A DNA stretch of 64,000 nt from Ruania rhizosphaerae (GTDB taxonomy: Bacteria; Actinomycetota; Actinomycetes; Actinomycetales; Beutenbergiaceae). Position 1 is the stretch's first letter. Every line of letters begins with the position of its first letter. The translations under genes were made by a program, and so were the position numbers. The DNA is taken from positions 1 through 64,000 of the forward strand of contig NZ_VSMB01000018.1 in the NCBI RefSeq assembly GCF_009805705.1, written 5' to 3'. The notes below the pieces were generated by a model. That model saw only the letters and a program-made list of their open reading frames with translations. It made no database searches and was not told where the DNA came from. Positions 41,953 to 56,249 of the stretch are shown in pieces.

Positions 41953-41979
41953 GAAACCGGAACGTTACATCGCTCTGAC
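41953..41979 (+). promoter_or_regulatory. Possible GlnR-type nitrogen box upstream of urtA
   Basis: GAAAC (41953), GTTAC (41964) and CTGAC (41975) follow one another at exact 11-base steps. GlnR boxes of actinobacteria are built from GTnAC and GaAAC half-sites separated by six bases. The first two match the consensus and the third is degenerate. Nitrogen control of a urea importer and urease would be expected. Confidence 0.4.
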
Positions 41980-41995
41980 GTCGGCGACACGTCCA

Positions 41996-42025
41996 TCTAC
42001 TTAGGTTCATATGAACCTAAGTAGA
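41996..42025. promoter_or_regulatory. Perfect 30-bp palindrome upstream of urtA
   Basis: TCTACTTAGGTTCAT is followed directly by its exact complement, giving 30 bp without a spacer or mismatch. It ends 32 bases before the urtA ATG. No T-tract follows, so it is more likely a dimeric repressor or activator site than a terminator. It is much AT-richer than its surroundings. The MarR protein encoded at 52481-52882 and nitrogen regulators are candidate binders. Confidence 0.75.
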
Positions 42026-42057: not shown

Positions 42058-43317
42058 ATGCGTCTACGCACCACCGGCACCAAGCGACTCGGTGTCCTCT
42101 CAGCCGCCGTCTCGGCCATCGCCCTGAGCGCCTGCGGCGCCCAGGTGGCTGACGCCGATTCGGAGAGTTCATCCACCAGCGACAGCTGTGTCGACACCTC
42201 CGGGGACACCATCGCGATCGGCTTCCTGAACTCCCTCTCCGGGACCATGGCCATCTCGGAGCAGACCGTCCACGACTCGCTCCAGCTCGCTGCTGCCGAG
42301 ATCAACGCCGACGGCGGAGTCCTCGGTCACGAGCTCGAGATCGTCACCGAGGACGGCCAGTCCGATCCTGCCGTCTTCGCCGAGCGCGCCACCAAGCTGA
42401 TCACCAGCGACTGCGTGGCCGCGGTCTTCGGTGGCTGGACGTCGGCCTCCCGGCAGGCGATGCTGCCGGTCTTCGAGTCGAACGACTCGCTGCTGTTCTA
42501 CCCGGTGCAGTACGAGGGCCTGGAGGCATCACCCAACATCTTCTACACCGGTGCCACGACCAACCAGCAGATTGTGCCCGCGCTGGACTACATGGTCGAG
42601 GAAGGCGTGGAGTCCCTCTTCCTCGTCGGCTCGGACTACGTCTTCCCCCGGACCGCCAACCGGATCATCAACGCCTACGCCGAGGAGCACGGAATCGAGA
42701 TCCTCGGCGAGGAGTACGCCCCGCTGGGCCACACCGACTTCTCCACAATCGTCAACCAGGTCAGCGCGGCCGGCGCCGATGCCGTCTTCAACACCCTCAA
42801 CGGCGACTCCAACGTCGCCTTCTTCCGCGAGTACACCAATTCCGGTCTGAGCGCCGAGGAGATGCCGGTGCTCTCGGTCTCCATCGCCGAGGAGGAGATC
42901 GGCGGGATCGGCGTCGAGAACGTCGAGGGCCAGCTGACGGCCTGGAACTACTACCAGACCGTGGACAGCCCGGAGAACGAGGCGTTCGTGGAGGCCTTCC
43001 AGGCCGAGTACGGCGAGGACCGGGTCACCTCCGACCCGATGGAGGCCGCCTACACCTCGCTCTACCTGTGGCGTGCGATGGTCGAGGAGGCGGAATCGTT
43101 CGCCGTCGAGGACATCCAGGCCGTCGCCGACGGGGTCACCTTCGACGCCCCGGAGGGCACGGTGACCGTCAGCGGCGAGAACCAACACATCTGGAAGACC
43201 TCCCTGATCGGGCGGATCGGACCCGACGGGCTGATCTACACCGAGTGGACCTCCGGCGAACCGATCGAGCCCGACCCCTTCCTCGAGGGATACGACTGGG
43301 CCGCGGACCTGAGCTGA
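42058..43317 (+). CDS. urtA: Urea ABC transporter substrate-binding lipoprotein
   Basis: A 419-residue periplasmic-binding protein of the UrtA/AmiC type. The signal peptide ends in a lipobox LSAC with Cys26. The [10 protein letters not shown] and [13 protein letters not shown] segments are typical of urea and short-amide binders. It delivers urea to UrtBC at the outer face of the membrane. The start is ATG 42058, preceded by a GGAG stretch. Upstream are a 30-bp palindrome and possible GlnR half-sites. It opens the urt-ure gene run. Confidence 0.95.
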
Positions 43318-43321
43318 CCCG

Positions 43322-44206
43322 ATGGACCTCCTCCTCCCCCAGCTCTTCGCGGGCCTCAGCCTCGGATCGGTCCTCCTGCTCGCAGCGCTCGGCCTCGCGC
43401 TGACGTTCGGGCAGATGGGCGTGATCAACATGGCCCACGGCGAGTTCATGATGGCCGGTGCCTACACCGCCTTCGTCACCCAGGCACTCGTCGGCAACGC
43501 CGGTGTCAGCCTGCTCGTGGCCCTGCCGGCCGGCTTCCTGGTCGGCGGGGTCCTCGGGCTGATCCTCGAGGCGACCCTCATCCGGCGGATGTACCACCGT
43601 CCGCTGGACACCCTGTTGGTCACGTGGGGGGTCGCACTGCTGCTGCAGCAGGTGGCACGCGATGTCTTCGGAGCCCCCAACGTCGACGTCAGCGTCCCCA
43701 CCTGGCTCACGGGCGCCGTCAGCATCGGTGGGCTGGCGCTGCCGAAGACGCGGCTGTTCATCCTGGCGATCGCGATCGTGTGCGTCCTCGCGCTGGCCGT
43801 GGTGCTGCGCTCGACCTCACTCGGACGGCGAATCCGCGCCGTCGTCCAGAACCGTGACCTGGCCGAGGCGTCCGGGATCTCCTCCCGGGCCACCGACCGC
43901 ACCACCTTCTTCATCGGGTCCGGGCTCGCCGGGATCGCCGGTGTCGCCGTGACTCTGCTGGGATCGACCGGCCCGAACCTCGGGATGAGCTACATCGTGG
44001 ACGCCTTCCTCGTGGTCGTGGTCGGCGGGATCGGGCACATCAAGGGCACCGTGATCGCAGCGGCGGCGCTGGGGCTGATGCAGGCGTTCTTCGAGTTCTC
44101 CACGACGGCCTCGATCGCGAAAGTACTGGTGTTCGTGGTGATCATCGCGTTCTTGCAGGTACGGCCGCAGGGGCTGCTGGTCACGAGGACGAGGAGCCTC
44201 GCGTGA
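43322..44206 (+). CDS. urtB: Urea ABC transporter permease UrtB
   Basis: A 294-residue permease of the branched-chain amino acid (LivH) family. GLSLGSVLLLAALGLALTFG and INMAHGEFMMAGAY at the N-terminus are hallmarks, and the EAA-like loop reads DLAEASGISSRATDRTTFF. It has about eight membrane segments. It starts four bases after urtA. An 85-base gap with a possible stem-loop separates it from urtC, while all other urt genes are tightly packed. Confidence 0.94.
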   Translation: MDLLLPQLFAGLSLGSVLLLAALGLALTFGQMGVINMAHGEFMMAGAYTAFVTQALVGNAGVSLLVALPAGFLVGGVLGLILEATLIRRMYHRPLDTLLVTWGVALLLQQVARDVFGAPNVDVSVPTWLTGAVSIGGLALPKTRLFILAIAIVCVLALAVVLRSTSLGRRIRAVVQNRDLAEASGISSRATDRTTFFIGSGLAGIAGVAVTLLGSTGPNLGMSYIVDAFLVVVVGGIGHIKGTVIAAAALGLMQAFFEFSTTASIAKVLVFVVIIAFLQVRPQGLLVTRTRSLA

Positions 44207-44279
44207 GCGCGAGGAGCCCCCGCGGAGGGGCGCCGAGGAACGAGGTGCACCGCAACGAGGCACCGCAGCCCTCACGCGA
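44199..44279 (+). promoter_or_regulatory. Long-range stem in the urtB-urtC gap
   Basis: TCGCGTGAG (44199-44207) pairs with CTCACGCGA (44271-44279) as a 9-bp perfect stem. It encloses a GCCCC/GGGGC hairpin and two near-copies of AACGAGGTGCACCGC. In the mRNA this could set the relative yield of the genes or protect an end; there is no sequence-level proof. Confidence 0.35.
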
Positions 44280-44291
44280 AAGGGGTACAGC

Positions 44292-45377
44292 ATGATCCGC
44301 ACCCTCACCACCGGCCGCACCGGCCCGCTGATCCTGCTCGCGATCGCGGCGATCCTGCTGTTCGCCGTCGCGCCGATCGCCCTGTCACCCTTCCGGCTCA
44401 GCCTGCTCGCACGTTTCCTGTGCGTGGCTATGGTGGCGGTCGGAATCGGCCTGGCCTGGGGGCGCGGCGGACTGCTCACCCTCGGTCAGGGCCTGTACTT
44501 CGGCCTGGGTGCCTACGTGATGGCGATGCACCTCAAGCTCGCCGATGCCGGCCCGGGTGGAGTCCCGGATTTCATGACCCTGTACGGCACCGGTGAGGTG
44601 CCCTGGTGGTGGGAGCCGATGCGCTCGCCGGTGGTGACGCTCGTGTTGATCGTGCTCGTGCCGGCCACCCTCGCCGCTGCTCTGGGGTGGGCCATCTTCA
44701 CCCGCCGGGTCCGCGGGGCCTACTTCGCCATCCTCTCCCAGGCTCTCGCAGCGGCATTCGCGATCCTGCTCATCGGCCAGCAGCAGACCACCGGTGGCAC
44801 GAACGGCCTGAACGGCTTTCGGGCCTTCTTCGGTTACGACCTGACCGACCCGGTGAACCAGCGGATGCTGTTCTTCATCGCGGCCGGTGTGCTGCTGGTG
44901 ATGGTGGTGATCGCCCGCCAGCTGATGGTCTCGCGGTTCGGCGAACTGCTGGTCGCGGTCCGGGACGCGGAGGACCGGGTGCGCTTCCTGGGCTACGACC
45001 CGGCCGCGGTGAAGACCATCGTCTACGTCCTGGCGGCGGTGATGGCCGCCGTCGGTGGCGCGCTTTTCGTCCCGATCGTGGGCATCATCTCGCCAACTGA
45101 CATCGGCGTGGTCCCCTCGATCGGCTTCCTCATCGGGGTCGCGATCGGCGGCCGCGCCACCCTGCTCGGCCCGGTGCTGGGGTCGATCGCGGTGAGCTGG
45201 GCGGAGACCTCGGTGGCCGAGCAGTTCCCCTCCGCGTGGACGTACTTCCAGGGTGCGCTGTTCCTCGGCGTCATCGCCTTCCTCCCGGGCGGGCTGGCCT
45301 CGATCGTCCGACGGCGACGCGCAGCACCGGTCACTGAGCCAGAACCGGACCCACGACCGGAAGGGAGAACCCTGTGA
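44292..45377 (+). CDS. urtC: Urea ABC transporter permease UrtC
   Basis: A 361-residue LivM-type permease with about nine membrane helices. WGRGGLLTLGQGLYFGLGAY and TGGTNGLNGFR are family stretches, and the loop RFLGYDPAAVKTIVYV contacts the ATPase. The start ATG 44292 follows GAAAGGGG. It overlaps urtD by four bases. Confidence 0.94.
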   Translation: MIRTLTTGRTGPLILLAIAAILLFAVAPIALSPFRLSLLARFLCVAMVAVGIGLAWGRGGLLTLGQGLYFGLGAYVMAMHLKLADAGPGGVPDFMTLYGTGEVPWWWEPMRSPVVTLVLIVLVPATLAAALGWAIFTRRVRGAYFAILSQALAAAFAILLIGQQQTTGGTNGLNGFRAFFGYDLTDPVNQRMLFFIAAGVLLVMVVIARQLMVSRFGELLVAVRDAEDRVRFLGYDPAAVKTIVYVLAAVMAAVGGALFVPIVGIISPTDIGVVPSIGFLIGVAIGGRATLLGPVLGSIAVSWAETSVAEQFPSAWTYFQGALFLGVIAFLPGGLASIVRRRRAAPVTEPEPDPRPEGRTL

Positions 45378-46195
45378 GCGACGCCACCGGCGAGGAGATC
45401 GACCTCGCGAGCGCCGAGGCACTGCTCGGCACCGACACCGACAGGTTCCGCCACGACTACCTCGAGATCCGTGGCCTGCGCGTCGCCTTCGGAGGATTCG
45501 TGGCCGTCCGTGATGTCGACCTGACGGTCACCCAGGGCGACCTGCACTTCCTCATCGGCCCGAACGGGGCCGGGAAGACCACGCTCATCGATGCCGTCAC
45601 GGGCCTGGTCAGCGCTACCGGATCCGCTCGATTCGGCGGAACCGAGTTGCTGGGCCGCGGCACACACCGGATTGCGCGAGAAGGCGTGGGACGCACTTTC
45701 CAGACCGCCAGCGTGTTCGAAGAGCTCACCGTGCTGCAGAACCTGGACATCGCCGCCGGTGCGCGCCGCGGGCCGATGGCGTTGCTGCGTCGCCGCCGGG
45801 ACACTCCGGAAGCCGTCGAGCAGGCGCTGGAGATGACCGGTCTGGCCTCGCACCGCCACACCGCGGCGGGTGTGCTGGCGCATGGCCAGAAGCAGTGGCT
45901 CGAGATCGGGATGCTGCTGGTTCAGGATGCCCACCTACTGCTGCTGGACGAACCTGTCGCCGGCATGACTCACGCCGAGCGGGAGGAGACGGGCGAGTTG
46001 CTGCGTCGCATCGGCTCACAGCGGGTGGTCGTGGTGGTCGAGCACGATATGGAGTTCCTACGCTCGTTCGCGGACTCGGTGACGGTCATGCATCAGGGCC
46101 AGGTGCTCGCCGAAGGCACGGTCGCCGAGGTGCAGCAGGATCCGGCCGTCGTCGAGGTCTACCTGGGCGACCCGGCAGCGGAAGGGAAACAGTGA
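45374..46195 (+). CDS. urtD: Urea ABC transporter ATPase UrtD
   Basis: A 273-residue LivG-type ATPase with Walker [25 protein letters not shown] as a signature variant (AHGQKQ, usual for UrtD), Walker B LLLLDEPVAGMT and the H-loop VEHDMEF. The start is GTG 45374, overlapping the urtC stop. An N-terminal extension of about 25 acidic residues precedes the ABC fold. The stop shares one base with the urtE start (TGATG). Confidence 0.95.
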   Translation: MSDATGEEIDLASAEALLGTDTDRFRHDYLEIRGLRVAFGGFVAVRDVDLTVTQGDLHFLIGPNGAGKTTLIDAVTGLVSATGSARFGGTELLGRGTHRIAREGVGRTFQTASVFEELTVLQNLDIAAGARRGPMALLRRRRDTPEAVEQALEMTGLASHRHTAAGVLAHGQKQWLEIGMLLVQDAHLLLLDEPVAGMTHAEREETGELLRRIGSQRVVVVVEHDMEFLRSFADSVTVMHQGQVLAEGTVAEVQQDPAVVEVYLGDPAAEGKQ

Positions 46196-46890
46196 TGCTG
46201 GAGTTGACCGGTGTGAACACCGGATATGGGCGCACCGACGTCGTCCACGACGTCAGCCTCACCGTCACCGACGGCGGCCTCACCTCGGTGCTGGGTCACA
46301 ACGGCGCCGGCAAGACCACGCTGCTACGCGCTGTGCTCGGACTGCTCCCGGTGCGGCGGGGGACAGTTCAGCTCGCCGGCACGGATGTGACCAACTGGCC
46401 CACACACCGCCGGATCCGGCGCGGCATCGCCTACGTCCCGCAGGGGCAGCAGTCCTTCGGGCAGCTGACGGCGCGCGAGAACCTGCAGGTGGTGGCCGAC
46501 GCCTACGGGGCGGCCGGTCGGCGTCGCACGGACGAGGCGCTGGATCTCTTCCCGGTGCTCGGTCCGCTGTTGTCCCGGCAGGCGGGCCTGCTCTCGGGCG
46601 GTCAGCGCCAGCAACTCGCCATTGCCCGCGCCTTGGTGACCGGTCCACAGCTGCTCCTGCTGGATGAACCCACGGAGGGAATCCAGCCGAACGTGGTCCG
46701 CGAGATTTACGCGGCCATCAGCGCACTCAGGGCCGACACCGATCTCTCGGTGTTGCTCGTCGAGCAACACATCGGCTACGCCGTCGAGCACGCCGAGGAG
46801 TATCTGGTGATGGCCTCCGGCCGGCTCACCCACCGCGCTCCCGGCGGCGCCGAGGCGATCGACGGCGCTCGGGGAGCGATGGCGCTGTGA
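46195..46890 (+). CDS. urtE: Urea ABC transporter ATPase UrtE
   Basis: A 231-residue LivF-type ATPase of normal length with Walker [30 protein letters not shown]-loop region, signature [15 protein letters not shown] and Walker [17 protein letters not shown]. It pairs with UrtD beneath UrtBC. ATG 46195 shares one base with the urtD stop. ureA follows after 28 bases, so importer and enzyme are probably one transcription unit. Confidence 0.95.
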
Positions 46891-46918: not shown

Positions 46919-47221
46919 GTGCACCTGACACCGGCAGACACCGAGAAGCTGCTGCTCGCCGTGGCCGGGATGATCGCCCGCGACCGGCTAAGTCGGGGCG
47001 TCCGGCTCAATCATCCGGAGACCGTCGCGCTGCTGTCGACCTGGGTGCTCGAACGGGCTCGGGAGGGCGCAGACGTGGCCACCCTCATGTCGGAGGGCCG
47101 GCAGGTGCTGACCCGGGAGCACGTGATGGACGGGGTGGCAGAGATGCTCACCGATGTCCAGGTCGAGGCCACCTTCCCGGACGGGCGCAAGCTCGTCACC
47201 CTGCATCATCCGATTCCCTAG
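46919..47221 (+). CDS. ureA: Urease gamma subunit
   Basis: A 100-residue gamma subunit of standard length: [22 protein letters not shown] at the start, [21 protein letters not shown] and the C-terminal LVTLHHPIP. It forms the outer part of the cytoplasmic urease trimer. The start is GTG 46919 with GGAAGG upstream. ureB follows after eight bases. Confidence 0.97.
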
Positions 47222-47229
47222 GAGGCCCC

Positions 47230-47571
47230 TTGTCCAGCCACGGCTCCTCCGGCCCCGGCGCCGTCCGCGTGGCCCCCGGAACGATCGAGCTCAATGCCGA
47301 CCGGACCCCCGCCGAACGACTGCTGCTGGTGGTCACCAACAGCGGCGACCGCCCGGTGCAGGTCGGCTCGCACATCCACCTCCCGGACGCCAACGCCGCC
47401 CTCCGGTTCGACCGGGCAGCTGCACACGGTTTCCGGTTGGACGTCCCGGCGGGGACGTCGCAGCGCTTCGAGCCAGGAGTGAGCCGCGAAGTTTCCCTGG
47501 TAGCGCTGCGCGGCAACCGGCGCGTCCCGGGAGTCCAACGGGGCAAGACCGATGACGGGCAGGTGGGCTGA
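47230..47571 (+). CDS. ureB: Urease beta subunit
   Basis: A 113-residue beta subunit with [38 protein letters not shown] and [12 protein letters not shown], all family signatures. The start is an unusual TTG at 47230, supported by GGAGG at 47221-47225 and by the position of the conserved residues. Its stop overlaps the ureC start by one base. Confidence 0.96.
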
Positions 47572-49274
47572 TGGTGCGCATCGATCGCGAGCGCTACGCC
47601 GCCCTGTACGGTCCCAGCGCCGGCGACCAGGTGCGCCTGGGTGACACAGACCTATGGATCGAGATCACCGAGGACCACTGCATCGGCGGTGACGAAGCCG
47701 TCTTCGGCGGCGGGAAGAGCATCCGGGAGTCGATGGCCCAGTCGACCCGGACCCGCGCCGAGGGTGCCCTCGACACGGTGGTGACGGGCGCCGTCGTGCT
47801 CGACTGGTGGGGCGTCATCCGCGCCGATGTGGGCCTACGGGAGGGACGGATCGTCGCGATCGGCCGGGCCGGGAACCCTGACATCGCCGACGGCGTCCAT
47901 CCCGACCTCGTCATCGGACCCTCCACCGACGTCATCTCCGGCGAGGGACGCATCCTCACCGCAGGCGGGTTCGATCCGCATGTGCACCTGCTGTCCCCCT
48001 CTGCCCTGCACGAGGCACTTGCCACCGGCCTGACCACCGTGGCCGGTGGCGGCACAGGCCCGTCCGAGGGGTCGAAGGCCACCACGGTCACGCCCGGCGC
48101 CTGGCACCTGCGGCAGATGCTGCGTGCCCTCGATCCGCTGCCGTTGAACGTGTTGCTGCTCGGTAAGGGCAACACCGTCAGCAGCGAGTCCCTCGCCGAG
48201 CAGGCGCTCGCCGGCGCGGGCGGGTTGAAGGTGCACGAGGACTGGGGCTCGACCCCCGCCGCGATCGATGCCTCGCTCCGGGCGGCGCAGGAGTGGGGGC
48301 TGCAGGTGGCGCTCCACTCGGACTCCCTGAACGAGGCAGGGTTCGTCCAGTCGACGATCGATGCCATCGGTGGACGCAGCATCCACGCCTATCACGTGGA
48401 GGGCGCCGGGGGCGGGCATGCGCCCGACATCCTCACCATCGCCTCGCTCGAGCACGTGATCCCCGGGTCGACGAACCCGACGCTGCCGCACACGGTGAAC
48501 ACGGTGGCCGAGCATCTGGACATGCTGATGGTCTGCCACCACCTCAACCCGTCGGTCCCCGAGGATCTGGCATTCGCGGAGTCCCGCATCCGGGCGAGCA
48601 CCATCGCCGCCGAGGACATCCTGCACGACATGGGCGCCATCTCCATCACCTCCTCCGATGCGCAGGCGATGGGGCGGATCGGGGAGGTCATCACCCGCAC
48701 CTGGCAGGTGGCGCATGTGATGAAGCACCGCCGCGGTCCGCTAAGCAGCACCGAGCCCGCCGACAACGAGCGTGCGCGGCGCTACGTCGCCAAATACACG
48801 ATCAACCCGGCCGTTGCGCACGGCGTGGACGCGCAGATCGGGTCGATCGAGCCGGGCAAGCTCGCCGACCTGGTGCTGTGGGACCCGCGCTTCTTCGGTG
48901 TCCGACCCGAGCTGGTGATCAAGGGCGGTGCGATCGCGTGGGCCGCCCTCGGCGATCCGAACGCCTCCATCCCCACTCCGCAGCCGGTGCTGCAGCGCCC
49001 TGCCTTCGGGGATGCCACCGCAGCCGATACCTCGGTGGCGTTCGTCTCCCCCGCAGCGATCGCGGACGGGCTCGCCGATCGGCTGGGCCTGCGCCGCCGC
49101 CTCGCACCCATCTCCGCCACCCGCGAGGTCGGCAAGTCGGATATGCGCAACAACGACGCCCTCCCCCGGATTGACATCAGGCCCGATACCTTCGAGATCC
49201 GGATCGACGGCGACCTGGTGGAACCGGCACCGGCCGCCGCACTGCCCCTGTCGCAGCTGTACTCGATGTTCTGA
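47571..49274 (+). CDS. ureC: Urease alpha subunit (catalytic)
   Basis: A 567-residue catalytic subunit. Nickel ligands are visible: His137 and His139 (FDPHVHL), the carbamylated Lys220 with His222 ([10 protein letters not shown]), His249, His275 (HVEGAGGGH) and Asp363 (SSDAQAMGR). The mobile flap [15 protein letters not shown] carries Cys322 and catalytic His323. It hydrolyses urea to ammonia and carbamate. ATG 47571 overlaps ureB. The residue before the HxH pair is Pro rather than the more usual Thr; otherwise the site is complete. Confidence 0.98.
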
Positions 49275-49969
49275 TGTCAGCACCACACCCGTTCTCGGTG
49301 GCGATGCTGCTCGCCGATGCCCGCCTGCCCGGGGGCGGTCATGCGCACTCGGCAGGTCTGGAGCCGGCGCTGCTGGCGGGGATGGCGCCGGCGGACGTAC
49401 CGGTCTGGCTCCGGGGGCGTGCCCGCACGGTCAGCCTCGTCGAGGCCGGGACGGCGGTGGTGACGGCACACCTGCTCAGCCACCCGCCCGTGGGGACGAG
49501 TGCGCAGACACACCTGTCCGCCGTCGTGGACGCCTGGGCGGCCCGCACGCCCTCAGCTGCGCTGCGGGAGGCCGCACACCTGCTGGGACGCGGCTACCGG
49601 CGGGTGGCCCGTTCCCTGTGGTCGCACCGCCCGCCGGTACAAGCGCTGGAAGCGTGGACGGGCCCTCTTCCCCGGGCCGTGGTGCTGGGGGCGATCGCAG
49701 CGGCGGCCGGTCTGCGGAGCGAGGACGTGGTCCGGCTCACCGTCTACGAGGATGCACAGACTGCCGCGGCCGCCCTGCTCAAACTCGAACCGTTGGATCC
49801 GCTCGCGCCCGCGCAGTGGGTTCTCGAGGCATGCGCTGCCGCGGAGCCGCACGTGCTCCGCGTCGCTGCATGCCTGACCCCGGAGGACATCCCGGCCTCC
49901 GGTGCCCCGCAAAATGAGGGCTGGGCCGAGGCCCACGCCCTCCTGACCCAGAGGTTGTTCCGTGCCTGA
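49274..49969 (+). CDS. ureF: Urease accessory protein UreF
   Basis: A 231-residue all-helical accessory protein. [20 protein letters not shown] is the UreF N-terminal signature, and [10 protein letters not shown] and [16 protein letters not shown] match the family. UreF forms a complex with UreD on apo-urease and acts on UreG. The start overlaps the ureC stop by one base, and its end overlaps ureG by eight bases. Confidence 0.93.
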
Positions 49970-50702
49970 TCTCCCTCAGAATCCTGACACCACGACCACC
50001 CGCCCGCTGCGGCTGGGCGTCGCCGGCCCCGTCGGCGTCGGCAAGTCCTCGCTCATCGCGACGATCTGCCGAGCTCTGGCCGAGGAGTTGGAGATCGGGG
50101 TGATCACCAACGACATCTACACCGACGAGGACGCCCGTTTCCTCCGGTCGGCCGGTGTGCTCGAACCCGAACGGATCCGCGCGGTGGAGACCGGCGCCTG
50201 CCCCCACACAGCCATCCGGGACGACGTCACCGCCAATCTGCTCGCTGCCGAGGATCTCGCCGAGGACTTCGCCCCGCTGGACCTCGTGGTGATCGAATCC
50301 GGCGGGGACAACCTCACCGCGACCTTCTCCCCCGCGCTCGTGGACGCGCAGATCTTCGTGCTGGACGTGGCCGGCGGCGGTGATGTGGCCCGCAAGGGTG
50401 GGCCGGGGATCGGGCGTGCCGATCTGCTCGTGGTCAACAAGACCGATCTGGCCCCGTACGTCGGCGTCGACGTGGAACAGATGGTGCGCGACGCCACGGC
50501 CGCCCGGGACGGGCGCGCCGTGATCGCCCTCTCGCGCACCGACGAGGCATCCGTGACGGCCCTGCGCTCCTGGGTGCTCGGGGTGCTCGGGCACTACCGG
50601 GACGGCGTCCACGTCGCTCAGGACCCGGGGCCGATGGCCCCGCACTTCCACGCCGAGGGCGAGGAGCACGACCATGAGCATGAGCACAGCCACGCGCACT
50701 GA
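49962..50702 (+). CDS. ureG: Urease accessory GTPase UreG with C-terminal His-rich tail
   Basis: A 246-residue SIMIBI-class GTPase. P-loop GPVGVGKSS (22-30), [28 protein letters not shown] (the Cys-Pro-His nickel motif), ESGGDNL and VNKTDLAPY are complete. It delivers nickel to urease upon GTP hydrolysis. The last 19 residues contain eight histidines ([19 protein letters not shown]), an unusual place for a tract that is commonly N-terminal in UreG. The start is GTG 49962. The coding of the tail overlaps the ureD start by 29 bases in another frame. Confidence 0.97.
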
Positions 50703-51492
50703 GCCGCTGACGACGTCCGTCTCGGTCGAGGCGCCCACCGCTCCCGGTGCTCCGGTCCAGGTCCGCACCACCGACGGGCTGCTCGCCGTACGCACGGTGC
50801 GGCGCGACCGAGTGGTAGCCGAGGTGGCGCTGGTCGCCACCGGGGCCGTCCTCCTCGGGGGCGACCACGTGGTGGTGCGGGTGAGCGTGGCGGACGGCTG
50901 CGCCCTGACGATCACCGACGTCGGCGGAACGGTCGCGTACGACGCCGACGGCGTCCCCAGCCTCTGGGACATCATCGTCACCCTCGGACACGGTTCCCAG
51001 TTGTCCTGGCTCGGGCTGCCGTTCGTGGTCGCCGAGGGCGCCGATGTGACACGGTCGACGACAGTACGAGCCGAGGCTGGGGCACAACTGGCACTGCGCG
51101 AGACGATCGCGTGGGGCCGGGCGGGCGAGCGGGGAGGGCACGCGCTGCTGCGCACCGAGGTCCATGACGCGCGCGGTCCGGTCGTGGTGGAAGAGATCCG
51201 GGCGTCCGGTCATGAGCAGGTACCTGGCGTCCTGGGGGCGGCGCGCGTCCTCGACACCGCCCTGGTTCTCGGTGAGCTCCCCGATCCCGGCGAGGTGGCG
51301 CTCGGGGATCTCTGCGCAGGCGGGTCCGGTGGTACGTACTGGGCACGGGCGGCACGTGCAGCGCTCTGGGACCTCGCTGCCGGTGCTCATCCTGACCTCA
51401 CGGCACTGCGGCCTGCGCGCGGTGGCCTCCTACTGCGGTGGCTCGGCCCGGCAGCCCACCTCAGCCCGCTGGAGCGGGCGCTTGAGCGTTGA
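50674..51492 (+). CDS. ureD: Urease accessory protein UreD (UreH)
   Basis: A 272-residue accessory protein. The central strand [20 protein letters not shown], then [17 protein letters not shown] and LLRTEVHD are the UreD signature region; the actinobacterial branch is divergent, so the match is less striking than for UreG. It is the scaffold that binds urease and UreF. ATG 50674 or 50680 lies within the His-tail coding part of ureG. It is followed by the nickel transporter gene after 40 bases. Confidence 0.9.
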
Positions 51493-51532: not shown

Positions 51533-52537
51533 ATGTCTGTCACGACCCGAGCCACCCGACCCGCGCGCGCGGTCCCGATCGTGGTGGCACTGCATGTGCT
51601 CGGCATCGGTGGGCTGGCCCTCGCGCCGGCCTTCCACGGCGGTTCCGTCGCGGTGCTCACCGGCCTCGGGCTGGCCGCCTACGGTCTCGGCCTGAGGCAC
51701 GCGTTCGACCCCGACCACATCGCCACGATCGACAACACCACCAGACGATTGGTGCGCACCGGTGCAGACTCCCGCGGGGTCGGGCTGTGGTTCTCACTCG
51801 GTCACTCGACCGTGGTCATCGTCGCTGCGCTGCTGCTCGCACTCGGGGTGCGCACACTGGCACCGATGCTCGACGATGACTCCTCGGTGCTACGCGAGGT
51901 GACCGGGGTCTGGGGGCCGCTGGTGGCCAGCAGCTTCCTGTTGGTGATCGCTGCCATCAACCTGGTGTTGCTCCGGCGCGCGCTACGCGGTTCTGACCCG
52001 GCGTCTCCCCTGGTCCACCATCGCGCCGGTGGACCGGTGACGTGGTTGCTGCGGCGGTTCGAGTGGGCCACGGACCGGCCGGGCCGGATGTACGGCGTCG
52101 GGGTGCTGTTCGGGCTCGGGTTCGACACGGCGACCTCGATCGGCCTGCTTGCGATCTCGGCGACCGCCTCGCTGAACCACGAGTCATGGTTGGCCGCAGT
52201 TCCACTGGCACTCCTGTTCGCGGCCGGCATGTCCGCGCTGGACTCCGCTCAGGGAGCGGTGGCACGGCGGGTGTACCGGTGGACGCCCGCAGCGACCGGC
52301 GGCGACAGGTGGCAGGTCCGCTATGACGTGCTCGTCACTGCGGTCTCAGCGCTGACGGCCCTCGGAATCGCCATCATCACACTCGTCCAGGTGGTCGCTG
52401 AGCGCGCGCCGGCCTTCGCCGGCATTCCCGGGGCGTCAGCCAACCTCGATCCGTACGGGATCGTACTGACAGTCGTGCTGCTAGTCGCCTGGGGCGTCGG
52501 GATGCTCGTGCTGCGCCAGCAGCACCGTCAGGCGTGA
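51533..52537 (+). CDS. NiCoT-family nickel/cobalt permease
   Basis: A 334-residue secondary transporter with eight membrane segments. The signature GLRHAFDPDHIATIDN (residues 53-68) includes the metal-binding His56, Asp59, Asp61 and His62, and LGFDTATSIGLL is the second motif. It imports nickel for urease. ATG 51533 follows AAGGAG. It is the last gene of the urease unit. Its 3' end overlaps the convergent MarR gene by 57 bases. Confidence 0.94.
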   Translation: MSVTTRATRPARAVPIVVALHVLGIGGLALAPAFHGGSVAVLTGLGLAAYGLGLRHAFDPDHIATIDNTTRRLVRTGADSRGVGLWFSLGHSTVVIVAALLLALGVRTLAPMLDDDSSVLREVTGVWGPLVASSFLLVIAAINLVLLRRALRGSDPASPLVHHRAGGPVTWLLRRFEWATDRPGRMYGVGVLFGLGFDTATSIGLLAISATASLNHESWLAAVPLALLFAAGMSALDSAQGAVARRVYRWTPAATGGDRWQVRYDVLVTAVSALTALGIAIITLVQVVAERAPAFAGIPGASANLDPYGIVLTVVLLVAWGVGMLVLRQQHRQA

Positions 52538-52882
52538 GAGCAGGTCTCGGCCGCGGGAGGAGATGTAGACACGGATGACGCGCCGGTCGAGCCCGTCGAC
52601 CTCGCGGTAGATCAGCGCCTGGGTCACCAGTGCATCGACCCGGCGACCGAGGGTGGCCTTGTCGATGACGGTGATCTCCCGCAGCTCGCTCATCGTCAGG
52701 CCGTCGCCGTCTTCGAGGCTGTCCAGCACGAGCCACTCGTCCAGGGTGAATCCCTCGCCGCGCAGGGCCTCCGCCGCTCCGCGCGCGGCTCGGCGAGCGC
52801 CGAGTACCGATTCGCGCAGCACGGCAGCAGCCATCGCCGACTCGACATCGGTGGTTGCCGACTGGCCCGCCGTCCGCATCAT
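52481..52882 (-). CDS. MarR-family transcriptional regulator
   Basis: A 133-residue winged-helix regulator. The MarR core is clear: LRGEGFTLDEWLVLDSLED, LTMSELREITVIDKATLGRRVDALV and the wing DRRVIRVYISSRGRDLL. ATG 52882 or 52879 follows AAGGGG. It is divergent from a cytosolic UrtA-like protein, with 86 bases between, and convergent with the nickel transporter. It may control the urea/nickel genes or the sensor; the binding site is not established. Confidence 0.88.
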   Translation of the reverse strand: MMRTAGQSATTDVESAMAAAVLRESVLGARRAARGAAEALRGEGFTLDEWLVLDSLEDGDGLTMSELREITVIDKATLGRRVDALVTQALIYREVDGLDRRVIRVYISSRGRDLLSRLTVLLAQHEHPDAPGD

Positions 52883-52968
52883 GACCCCTTACTCTCGCTG
52901 CCGACAGTCTACAAGTACGATCGTCGCCACCGCAGGCCGGCTGAGCCGGTCCCCACCACGGATGGGGA

Positions 52969-54027
52969 GTGATGTCGGACTTCGTGATCGGTGCCCTGTT
53001 GCACTTCCAGGGACCGGGAGGGATCTACGGGCCCTCCTGCCAGTCGGTGACCGAGCTCGCCATCGCCGAGATCAACGCGACCGGGGGGATCCTGGGCAGA
53101 CGGACCCGAGTCGAACTCTTCGACGCGGGTCTGCCACCTGCCGTCCTGCGCCAGCATCTCGGTCAGGCCCTCGACGCCGGGCGGCTCGACGCCCTCACGG
53201 GCTGGCACACCTCGGCGGTGCGCAACGCCGTCGTTCCGGTGGTCCAGCGGCGGGTACCCTACGTCTATCCCGCCGCCTACGAGGGTTCCGAGAACCGCTC
53301 GGGACTGTACGTGACGGGCGAGGTGCCCTCTGCTCAACTCTTCCCGGCGATCCGGCAGCTCCGGTCCGAGCGCTCCACCCGCCGGTGGTTCGTCGTCGGA
53401 GACGACTACGCCTGGCCCCGGGGGACGTTCCAGGTGCTGTCCCAGCAGATCGCCGACCTGGACGCGGAGTTCGCCGGCGCCCGGTTCCTCCCCGCCGACG
53501 GGGCAGGCGCCGCCGAGATCACGCGGGTACTCGACGCGATCGAGTCCACCCGCGCCGACGGTGTGCTGATGCTGATGGTCGGCCAGAACGGGGTCCGCTT
53601 CAATCGCGCCTTCGCCCGGCGGGGGCTGCACGAGCGGGCGATCCGGCTGAGCACGTTGATGGAGGAGAATATGTTGCTCGGCAGTGGCCTGGCCGGCACC
53701 GCCGACCTGTTTTCAGCCGGTGGCTGGTTCCGCAGCCTGGCCACCGGAGAGGCCCTCGATCTCATCGGGCGCTACACCGCCCATCACGGCACCCATGCTC
53801 CCGCCGTCGGTGCCGCCGCGGAGGCGTGCTATGAGGGGGTCTTCGCCCTCCGGTCGCTCGTGCAGCGAGCCGGGAGCGCGTCCGTACACGCCACCGACCG
53901 TTCGGTGGACGGGCTGGTGTACGAGGGCCCACGTGGGCCGGTGCAGTTCACCGGTAATCACGCGAGCCAACGCCTCTACCTTGCACGCGCCAATGGCGTC
54001 GACTTCGACCTGGTGGACGAGCTCTGA
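52969..54027 (+). CDS. UrtA/AmiC-like ligand-binding protein without signal peptide
   Basis: A 352-residue type 1 periplasmic-binding fold (Peripla_BP_6). It is clearly related to the urtA product: YPAAYEGSEN and FVVGDDYAWPRGTF correspond to YPVQYEGLE and [10 protein letters not shown]. It lacks any signal peptide or lipobox, so it should stay in the cytoplasm, like AmiC of Pseudomonas, which senses short amides and controls AmiR. Starts at GTG 52969 or ATG 52972 are possible behind GATGGGGAG. No ANTAR-type partner is nearby; the divergent MarR gene is the only regulator at hand. A urea or amide sensor is inferred. Confidence 0.82.
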   Translation: MMSDFVIGALLHFQGPGGIYGPSCQSVTELAIAEINATGGILGRRTRVELFDAGLPPAVLRQHLGQALDAGRLDALTGWHTSAVRNAVVPVVQRRVPYVYPAAYEGSENRSGLYVTGEVPSAQLFPAIRQLRSERSTRRWFVVGDDYAWPRGTFQVLSQQIADLDAEFAGARFLPADGAGAAEITRVLDAIESTRADGVLMLMVGQNGVRFNRAFARRGLHERAIRLSTLMEENMLLGSGLAGTADLFSAGGWFRSLATGEALDLIGRYTAHHGTHAPAVGAAAEACYEGVFALRSLVQRAGSASVHATDRSVDGLVYEGPRGPVQFTGNHASQRLYLARANGVDFDLVDEL

Positions 54028-56123
54028 CCTCGATACCGGAACCACGCCCAAACCGCCACCGAGGCCAACCCGAAGGCACCGAATGCCGCGCCCCACACCA
54101 GCGCTGCACCGGTCGCCTCCTGCCACGAGCCCGGCAGCGGCGCCACCGCGAGGAGGAACACGACGATGACCGCCGCGTACAGGCCCACCCACACCCGACG
54201 GGACCATCGCACGATCCGCTGCCCGTCAAGGAAGGTCATGGGCAGGAGCGCCACCACGCAATAGCCGACCGCCCCGGTGAGCAGGGTGGTCAGGTACTCG
54301 CGCAGCAACTCGGTCCCGAACCCTGTGGATGCTGAGGCGATCATGCCGTACCCGAGCCAGGCCAGCACACCGACGGCGATGAAGGCGCCACAGACGGCAG
54401 CGGACAGCTTGCCGCGCTGCTGCCTGGTCAGCGAACCGGCGAATGTCGTCATGATCAGTACGCCGAAGATGATCGCCGGCTGGAGGCCGAACAGGCGTGA
54501 GACCAGTGCGCTTGCGGCAGTCAGCAGAATGAAGCCGGGCATCAGAGTGAGCCGCGGGTGCGCCTCGTACCGCGTGCCGAGCCACCAGCCGAGCGCGACG
54601 CCGAGGCCGTTCGTCGTGGCAAAGGCGAGGAACATGGCCAGCCAGAGCCGGGCCATGACTCCCGCACCACCAGAGTCTCCCTTCGCGAGGACAGCCACCA
54701 GCGCGCCCGCAGCGAGCACGGCACCCGCCGCGGCCCACGCGGGGAGCCTGACCCGGTCGAGCCACCGAGCTCCTCGGCGACGCAGGCCCGCCAGGAACGC
54801 GAACGCCTGGGTGTAGTTGCTGCGGAGAGTCGCGTGCAGGAGCTCCGAGGGCAGGGCCACCAGCAGGAGGAACCCGGCGGCGGTCAGGGCCGCCCCACCG
54901 AGGACGACTGGCTCAGTCACAACCTCCGACGCGGTGGTCAACGTGTGACCGTAGGTGGACGGCGGAGGCGGGCCGGCACCAGGAGGTCCGGTGGCGGTCG
55001 TCTGCCCCGCAGCCATCCCCGCCGCACCGCCACTATCGGGCGGCGGCGGAGCTGACTCGTCGTCACCGGGATCTTGCGACGGCTGTGGGTCCGGGACGGC
55101 GTCGGCAGTCGGCGTGGGCGTGGGCGTCAGGGTGGGCGCGGGCACTGGCGGTGACTCCGGCACGGCCACAGGCGGCGCCACGGGGCCCGCAGGCGATGGT
55201 GGAGGCGAGGGCGCCGGTGAGGCACTGGGCTGTGGGGAGGGCGAGGGCTGTGGGCCGGGACTGGGATCGGGTGAGGGACTGGGATCGGGCGAAGGGTCCG
55301 CCGTCGGCTCTGGATCAGGAGTGGGCTCAGGCTCAGGCTCCGGTTCCGGTTGCTCGACGAAGATCCACCTGAATCCCGAGGCGATCGGGTACTCGGTCCC
55401 TGCCGGGTCGCCGTCGATCGGGACGTGCCGGACGCTGTAGACGTGGGCACCGGCATCGAGACTGCTGGTGTCGACGTCGCACGACCACTGTGGCTGCGAC
55501 CAGGCGAGGTCGGTGCAGACCGGCTCGGCACCGTCCGGAACCGTTGCGGACACCAACTGGTCGTCGTAGACCTCGACCCCCATCCCCTCGAATCGTGTGC
55601 CGCCGAGTGCGACCCGCTCACCGTCGGAGTCGACGTTGCGGGAGTCGACCTCGGGTGAGCCCAGCGTGCGCAGGATGCCGAGCGACGCCATCGCCTCGCT
55701 GTCACTCGCGCCCGGGACGACCATCTCGGCCATCAGCCCGTACAACGTCGGCATCGGTCCCTGATCCCGGGCGTCGTACCGGCACGTCCAGCGGTCCTGG
55801 TCCGGCTCGTACGTCCAGGACTCGCAGATCGTCACCGTGCTCCCATCGAGCGCGATGCCCGAGACGCGGACGAAGAACTCCTGCACCGCGCTGGCATCAC
55901 CGGTGAATGAGTACGTGGGGCGTGAGCCCGGGTCCGAGGGCAGCACGAAGTAGTCGCCCCACGGCCCTTGGACCGCATAGTCAGGAACATCCGCTGTCAG
56001 CGACGGCTCGTCCGGTGTCTGGGCCTGCGCGGGGACGGCGGACGAGACAGCCAACGTGGTTCCCAGCACCAGGCAGGCGATGGCGAGCAGGGCCACACGG
56101 CACACCTGCGCCCATCGTTCCAT
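53976..56123 (-). CDS. Large membrane protein with secreted N-terminal domain and Pro-rich linker
   Basis: A 715-residue protein. The signal peptide (LLAIACLVLGTTLAVSSAVPAQAQ, cut after AQA) is followed by an outside domain to about 260 with paired cysteines, then roughly 120 residues of Pro/Ser/Glu/Asp repeats (EPEPEPEP, SPDPSPSPDPSP), then six to eight membrane helices and a short cytoplasmic tail. The PSELLHATLRSNY stretch after the first helix is reminiscent of other actinobacterial multi-pass proteins of unknown role. ATG 56123 follows GGGGGAGGCG; the longer frame overlaps the divergent gene. A surface sensor or envelope protein is possible. Its end overlaps the sensor gene by 52 bases. 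Confidence 0.78.
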   Translation of the reverse strand: MERWAQVCRVALLAIACLVLGTTLAVSSAVPAQAQTPDEPSLTADVPDYAVQGPWGDYFVLPSDPGSRPTYSFTGDASAVQEFFVRVSGIALDGSTVTICESWTYEPDQDRWTCRYDARDQGPMPTLYGLMAEMVVPGASDSEAMASLGILRTLGSPEVDSRNVDSDGERVALGGTRFEGMGVEVYDDQLVSATVPDGAEPVCTDLAWSQPQWSCDVDTSSLDAGAHVYSVRHVPIDGDPAGTEYPIASGFRWIFVEQPEPEPEPEPTPDPEPTADPSPDPSPSPDPSPGPQPSPSPQPSASPAPSPPPSPAGPVAPPVAVPESPPVPAPTLTPTPTPTADAVPDPQPSQDPGDDESAPPPPDSGGAAGMAAGQTTATGPPGAGPPPPSTYGHTLTTASEVVTEPVVLGGAALTAAGFLLLVALPSELLHATLRSNYTQAFAFLAGLRRRGARWLDRVRLPAWAAAGAVLAAGALVAVLAKGDSGGAGVMARLWLAMFLAFATTNGLGVALGWWLGTRYEAHPRLTLMPGFILLTAASALVSRLFGLQPAIIFGVLIMTTFAGSLTRQQRGKLSAAVCGAFIAVGVLAWLGYGMIASASTGFGTELLREYLTTLLTGAVGYCVVALLPMTFLDGQRIVRWSRRVWVGLYAAVIVVFLLAVAPLPGSWQEATGAALVWGAAFGAFGLASVAVWAWFRYRGQSSSTRSKSTPLARAR

Positions 56124-56249
56124 CAGCGCCTCCCCCGAGGTCCGGACCACTCCGCACGACGGTACCGGCCACTTCATGGACGCGATCGGCCGATGGCCTA
56201 CAGTGGCCACACATGGGCCGGCGACCAGCGTTCAACGATGGGGGGCCAG

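Follow-up and report, generated by a model that had tools for sequence, protein, structure and literature searches.

In Pseudomonas aeruginosa, AmiC is partnered by AmiR, an ANTAR antiterminator. NhlC/NhlD and NhhC/NhhD are regulators of the nitrile hydratases of Rhodococcus rhodochrous J1, and urease itself can be placed under UreR, an AraC-type, urea-responsive activator. In Mycobacterium smegmatis, AmiC is binding-protein-like and AmiA is MarR-like. The M. smegmatis acetamidase operon has AmiC as a positive regulator and AmiA as a negative one, alongside AmiD (PMC12719403). Pairs of this kind are already known for amidases, and the new part at the locus described here is its likely target, a urease operon, together with a candidate site of action. 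Positions below are those of the 64,000-nucleotide stretch of DNA that was analysed (the window), whose relevant features are:

41953-41968, no strand: GAAAC-n6-GTTAC resembling a GlnR box, at a fixed distance 5' of the palindrome
41996-42025, no strand: perfect palindrome of 30 bp within the promoter of urtA, the putative MarR operator (motif and conservation)
42058-43317, plus strand: urtA, encoding the true urea-binding protein, whose N-terminus is signal-like (TIGR03407, 552.8 bits, above cut-off)
43322-46890, plus strand: urtB, urtC, urtD and urtE (NCBIfam UrtB, UrtC and UrtD above cut-off)
46919-51492, plus strand: ureA, ureB, ureC, ureF, ureG and ureD (NCBIfam for ureA, B, C and G; Pfam UreD)
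51533-52537, plus strand: nicO, nickel transporter, final gene of the putative operon (Pfam NicO, 5.5e-50)
52481-52882, minus strand: MarR-family regulator of 133 aa, proposed repressor (Pfam MarR_2, E 7e-12)
52972-54027, plus strand: cytosolic type-I binding protein of AmiC/UrtA type, proposed sensor of urea or a short amide (Peripla_BP_6, 2.7e-62)

The pair and the adjoining operon

The pair type as understood here combines a Peripla_BP_5/6 protein without export signal, a MarR winged-helix protein, a linked operon for amide, nitrile or urea hydrolysis and, upstream of the structural genes, a palindromic site of related sequence. The linked operon is in this case a urease operon by NCBIfam and Pfam, and its content is confined to urea-type uptake, urease and nickel genes. 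All genes from urtA to nicO point in the same direction with intergenic gaps of at most 85 bp, and we infer that urtABCDE-ureABCFGD-nicO forms a single transcript. UrtE scores marginally below its NCBIfam cut-off (284.9 against 285.8), and ureF, with no NCBIfam match at 1e-20, was assigned from position and sequence alone. The pair occupies the distal end of the operon: the MarR gene, whose MarR_2 domain reaches 45.7 bits against a Pfam cut-off of 27, shares a 57-bp tail-to-tail overlap with nicO and is divergent from the binding-protein gene across an 89-bp gap. Within this gap (52883-52971) a block partly conserved by eye across urease-linked loci is followed, before the sensor start, by inverted repeats that are rich in G+C and variably spaced. 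On the opposite strand, a 744-aa proline-rich, membrane-like open frame without a Pfam match (53976-56210) runs 52 bp into the 3' end of the sensor gene.

The sensor open frame covers 52969-54027, and the best start, ATG at 52972, gives a protein of 351 aa. All urease-linked rows but one (13 of 14) begin with MSDF, the exception being the Galbitalea row with MSAF. Identity with the window's UrtA is 26%, and UrtA itself can be ruled out as its identity: the protein scores 136 bits against TIGR03407 (cut-off 492.75; the UrtA at 42058 scores 552.8) and is a Peripla_BP_5/6-type protein without export signal. The N-terminus has no hydrophobic segment such as that of UrtA, and an in-frame TGA at most 10 codons 5' of the ATG leaves no space for a signal peptide hidden in a longer N-terminus, a possibility thereby ruled out. 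An AF2 model (pLDDT 93, pTM 0.88) was closest in Foldseek to urea-binding protein and UrtA, then to AmiC. As far as the model can tell, the fold matches to urea-binding 8tg1 (VIA-align Z 36.5, rmsd 3.3, 344 residues) and to AmiC 1pea (Z 36.0, rmsd 3.4, 344 residues) are a tie. Two loops, GWHTS and YPAAYEG, are present in all 14 urease-linked rows, the remaining 25 rows having GWHIS and T/P-x-LYEG there; UrtA structures carry WTS and YP, and AmiC carries YMS and YPTPYEG. In AmiC the corresponding loops touch the ligand, and here they would line the pocket. The operon content and, weakly, the two loops (the urease clade counting as a single event) make urea the most likely ligand, a short amide being possible.

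An earlier note on this DNA had described a MarR gene divergent from a UrtA-like protein beside the nickel transporter, and that arrangement is confirmed at 52481-54027. Its view of the protein as UrtA-like and, in the manner of AmiC, devoid of an export signal agrees with the sequence, the predicted fold and the in-frame upstream stop. It had also remarked that MarR, and no AmiR-type ANTAR protein, is the adjacent partner. This stands: the window's contig (C9) has no ANTAR match, the genome's two such matches lying on C2 and C5, and an ANTAR partner for the sensor was rejected.

Pairing in other genomes

The note had further proposed a check on the co-occurrence of the two genes, and the outcome is favorable. 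A scan of named genomes returned 229 sensor relatives, and the counts that follow cover the best 80 of the 229, those nearest the window. In 75 of the 80, sensor and MarR gene are no more than 1.5 kb apart, which argues that the adjacency is not due to chance; MarR is divergent and upstream in 68 of the 75 and downstream in 7, and tblastn found no MarR in the other five loci. Among the same 80, the sensor is linked to urease in 13 loci (13 with MarR), to formamidase FmdA in 16 (14), to urtABC without detected urease in 29 (27), to AmiS in nine (nine) and to other genes in 13 (12); aliphatic amidase AmiE is present in 11. The divergence of sensor and MarR runs in parallel, with a Mantel r of 0.925 over the 70 of 75 loci that passed a length and stop filter, a value that shared descent alone could explain. 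The window's MarR is 45% identical to that of a binding protein-AmiS-AmiE locus in M. arabiense. Four annotated plasmid regions, examined out of 924 matching records, all contain a binding protein and a MarR, three beside an aliphatic amidase and one, from Rhodococcus sp. M8, beside nitrile hydratase and cobalt uptake.

The 13 urease loci belong to Isoptericola, Promicromonospora, Myceligenerans, Antribacter, Krasilnikoviella and Galbitalea. NicO was detected in 12 of them, and one of the 13 is cut by a contig end. In a quick tree, unrooted in effect because the UrtA outgroup branch is too long for rooting, the urease-linked sensors form one group of 14 rows including the window (support 100), and the window is placed among the Isoptericola rows. 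Since its family differs from that of genome G031, this placement suggests transfer of the cluster. Eight members of the genus were searched and two have the urease-linked cluster, the window's own genome with the pair intact and G003 with the pair broken; another, G006, has a formamidase-linked pair only.

Some of the loci depart from the common layout. L017 (11002-14520) is urease-linked without detectable NicO; in it, a FecCD-type ABC transporter with its binding protein is located between ureD and the pair and may import nickel in place of NicO. In L023 (7112-10103, genome G096) a distant sensor homologue (36%) adjoins urease, no MarR being found near it in the 20 kb of the locus; a 562-aa open frame without Pfam match separates the two. 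The 29 urt-linked loci, within L057-L106 and from Streptomyces, Actinoplanes and Phytohabitans, have the sensor beside urtABC and no urease in the flanks covered, and their transporter may carry a cargo other than urea. Many of them show TACTTCC..GGAAGTA-like sites 3' of the sensor gene, and L063 has an amidohydrolase downstream.

A palindrome in the urtA promoter

An inverted-repeat search identified the perfect 30-bp palindrome, 32 bp 5' of urtA. Its core, TTAGGTTCATNTGAACCTAA, is conserved among urease-linked loci: 13 of 14 further ones have it 5' of urtA with up to three mismatches. The fourteenth, from Galbitalea, is the most divergent urease-linked row and has TACTTTCATTTGAAA instead, a type found before amidase and formamidase genes. 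The AGG/CCT flanks of the palindrome in the urease clade are unlike those of the amidase type. When up to three mismatches are allowed, a single copy of the core exists in the genome to which the window belongs. Among 119 relatives, that genome included, the palindrome (up to two mismatches) is present in five. Four of these are the genomes that have the urease-linked pair (broken in one case); the fifth is G044, in which it sits at the end of a contig and the 1,639 bp there contain no recognisable neighbour. UrtA is present in 11 of the 119, and seven of these 11 have no sensor. The family of G031 offers a larger sample, partly overlapping with the above in that several of its 101 genomes also underlie the 14-locus comparison of the core. 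Eight of the 101 have the sensor, the same eight have the palindrome (up to three mismatches), and 28 have UrtA; the palindrome is absent from all 20 UrtA-positive, sensor-negative genomes. Relatedness ignored, the odds of this split of eight versus 20 are 1 in 3,108,105. Closeness of UrtA alone is insufficient to account for the pattern, as the UrtA identities of the sensor-positive and sensor-negative sets meet at 79-80%. Judged by these sequence comparisons, the palindrome goes with the presence of the sensor and not with that of urtA.

One genome does not fit neatly. In the congener G003 (locus L026, 8685-9764), ureA, ureC, urtB and nicO match nearly full length, the sensor is frame-shifted and truncated, its match ending near residue 208 of 351, and MarR is split across two frames. 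The palindrome is intact there, with a symmetrical change in both arms. A recent loss of the pair would explain its retention; G003 offers a natural experiment for such a loss.

A motif defined in this analysis leads to the same site. It was trained on four sites from amidase and formamidase loci (two in L046, one each in L078 and L079) and on no urease-linked site. Its best match in the window is the urtA palindrome (23.2 bits; runner-up 8.6), a site of the related palindromic type upstream of the structural genes. In all 14 other urease-linked urtA loci, too, the best match is the palindrome site upstream of urtA (14.6-28.8 bits), and in the seven relatives that have urtA and no pair the best score is at most 11.4. 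Across 63 held-out non-urease loci, the zones close to the pair or to structural promoters (54,022 bp) contain 24 matches of at least 20 bits, against one in the remaining 1,157,252 bp; at 15 bits or more there are 45 near and three elsewhere. These ratios are descriptive, since neither zones nor training sites were chosen blind and the held-out loci include near kin of the training loci. A match near the pair occurs in 19 of the 63 at 20 bits and in 32 at 15 bits. Read most simply, these matches would mean that a single operator type is bound by many of the family's MarR proteins. An autoregulatory site in the window's MarR-sensor gap was considered and discarded: the inverted-repeat search came up empty there, and the best motif score is -3.9. 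Several amidase loci, unlike the window, do have a motif site in that gap.

A GAAAC/GTAAC-n6-GTnAC box, which resembles the GlnR box, is found in all 14 promoters of a set to which Galbitalea does not belong, its start always 47 bp 5' of the palindrome match. A consensus scan of the urtA site found no sigma-70-like promoter; by eye, the palindrome includes a TANNNT-like -10 element, TAGGTT. MarR placed on the palindrome should therefore repress.

A proposed switch and its relatives

The pair probably switches the operon for urea uptake, urease and nickel uptake, with predicted binding of MarR at the palindrome. One could envision that an actinobacterial AmiC/MarR-type pair of sensor and repressor has been re-aimed at urea. 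A MarR dimer on the urtA-promoter palindrome would keep urtABCDE-ureABCFGD-nicO repressed; the cytosolic protein, on binding urea or possibly a short amide, would contact MarR and relieve the repression, and uptake, urease and nickel supply would be produced together when urea is present. The GlnR-like box 5' of the palindrome might provide extra activation at nitrogen shortage. Here we infer MarR binding at the palindrome, the identity of the ligand, the contact between sensor and MarR and the direction of its effect. That MarR represses the operon, that the sensor, probably loaded with urea, lifts the repression and that GlnR may add nitrogen control strikes us as likely. Removal of MarR by the ligand-loaded sensor is the most likely direction because, in M. 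smegmatis, AmiA is negative and AmiC positive (PMC12719403). Against this model speak the palindrome retained in G003 beside a broken pair, the lack of a site in the gap, the patchy occurrence of the motif, the five of 80 loci and the G096 locus without MarR, the AGG/CCT flanks that set the urease clade apart and the negative sigma-70 scan at the urtA site.

The same circuit could respond to formamide, acetamide, another small amide or a urea derivative. The ties of the sensor's wider family to amidase and formamidase genes speak for such a ligand, as does a fold as close to AmiC as to urea-binding protein. However, the operon is devoted to urea uptake, urease and nickel, and the loops of the urease clade share T-S and YP letters with UrtA structures, a weak point; overall we find an amide ligand rather unlikely. 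Many MarR proteins bind small ligands directly, and MarR might sense the ligand and control the operon alone, the binding protein acting as a cytosolic urea buffer or in some other role. The pairing in 75 of 80 loci and the parallel divergence of the two proteins, for which shared descent could suffice, make this very improbable.

The G003 palindrome, kept despite the broken pair, would also be expected if a different transcription factor occupied the site and the pair controlled something else. This is most improbable, as the palindrome follows the sensor rather than urtA and related sites recur at pairs in amidase and formamidase loci. Nor is the ArsR-like gene next to the window's urtA conserved: with about 1.5 kb beside urtA viewed in each case, the urtA neighbors (ArsR-like, AHSA1, NUDIX) recur in one of 14 urease-linked loci, the congener, and the ArsR-like protein was rejected as the palindrome binder. 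An accidental neighborhood, with the pair an unrelated leftover, would suit the patchy distribution among the eight genus members; since in all 13 named close relatives the pair has stayed close to urease genes, it was already disfavored and is scarcely credible.

The proposed switch bears on two further suggestions of the earlier note. It had anticipated control of urease or nickel uptake, and the conserved candidate operator points to the whole urt-ure-nicO operon. Its idea that a binding-protein sensor with MarR might be an undescribed kind of pair finds no support in view of the M. smegmatis AmiC/AmiA system (PMC12719403) and of the amidase and nitrile hydratase loci on plasmids. Our literature search found no sensor-MarR pair controlling urease among the matches listed, weak evidence of absence as subscription papers were thinly covered. 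If the model is true, actinobacterial urease would have a substrate-sensing switch besides nitrogen control, and uptake, enzyme and metal supply would be linked in one unit; the 30-bp candidate site makes the claim directly testable. It is tempting to speculate more broadly that the cytosolic urea-binding protein, and not MarR, does the sensing and frees urease, urea uptake and nickel uptake, and that one operator type, with a TTCANNTGAA core drifting by clade, is recognised by a large part of the actinobacterial sensor-MarR family, a proposition whose chances we consider evenly balanced. Should a single operator type hold, the targets and ligands of many unnamed pairs would be predictable from DNA, and the operator type may bear on acetamide- and nitrile-inducible expression tools.

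The described precedent is M. smegmatis AmiC/AmiA, likened here by its description: it too joins a positive and a negative regulator. It differs from the window's pair in controlling an amidase, not urease, and in having AmiD besides. The Mycolicibacterium loci L048, L050 and L055 have the order MarR-sensor-AmiS-AmiE and a 26.7-bit motif match, TACTTTCATTTGGACATA, before AmiS. NhlC/NhlD and NhhC/NhhD resemble the window's pair as a binding protein and a MarR beside nitrile hydratase, an arrangement seen on the Rhodococcus sp. M8 plasmid, and differ in their target, nitrile hydratase, with cobalt uptake nearby. AmiC of P. aeruginosa shares the sensor fold (1pea); its partner is the ANTAR protein AmiR, whereas MarR fills that place in the window. 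UrtA has both the fold and landmark segments in common with the sensor, 8tg1 being the top structure, and is set apart by its export signal and by the sensor's score far under the TIGR03407 cut-off. Finally, UreR, though an activator from an unrelated family, shares with the proposed pair the principle of substrate-dependent control of urease.
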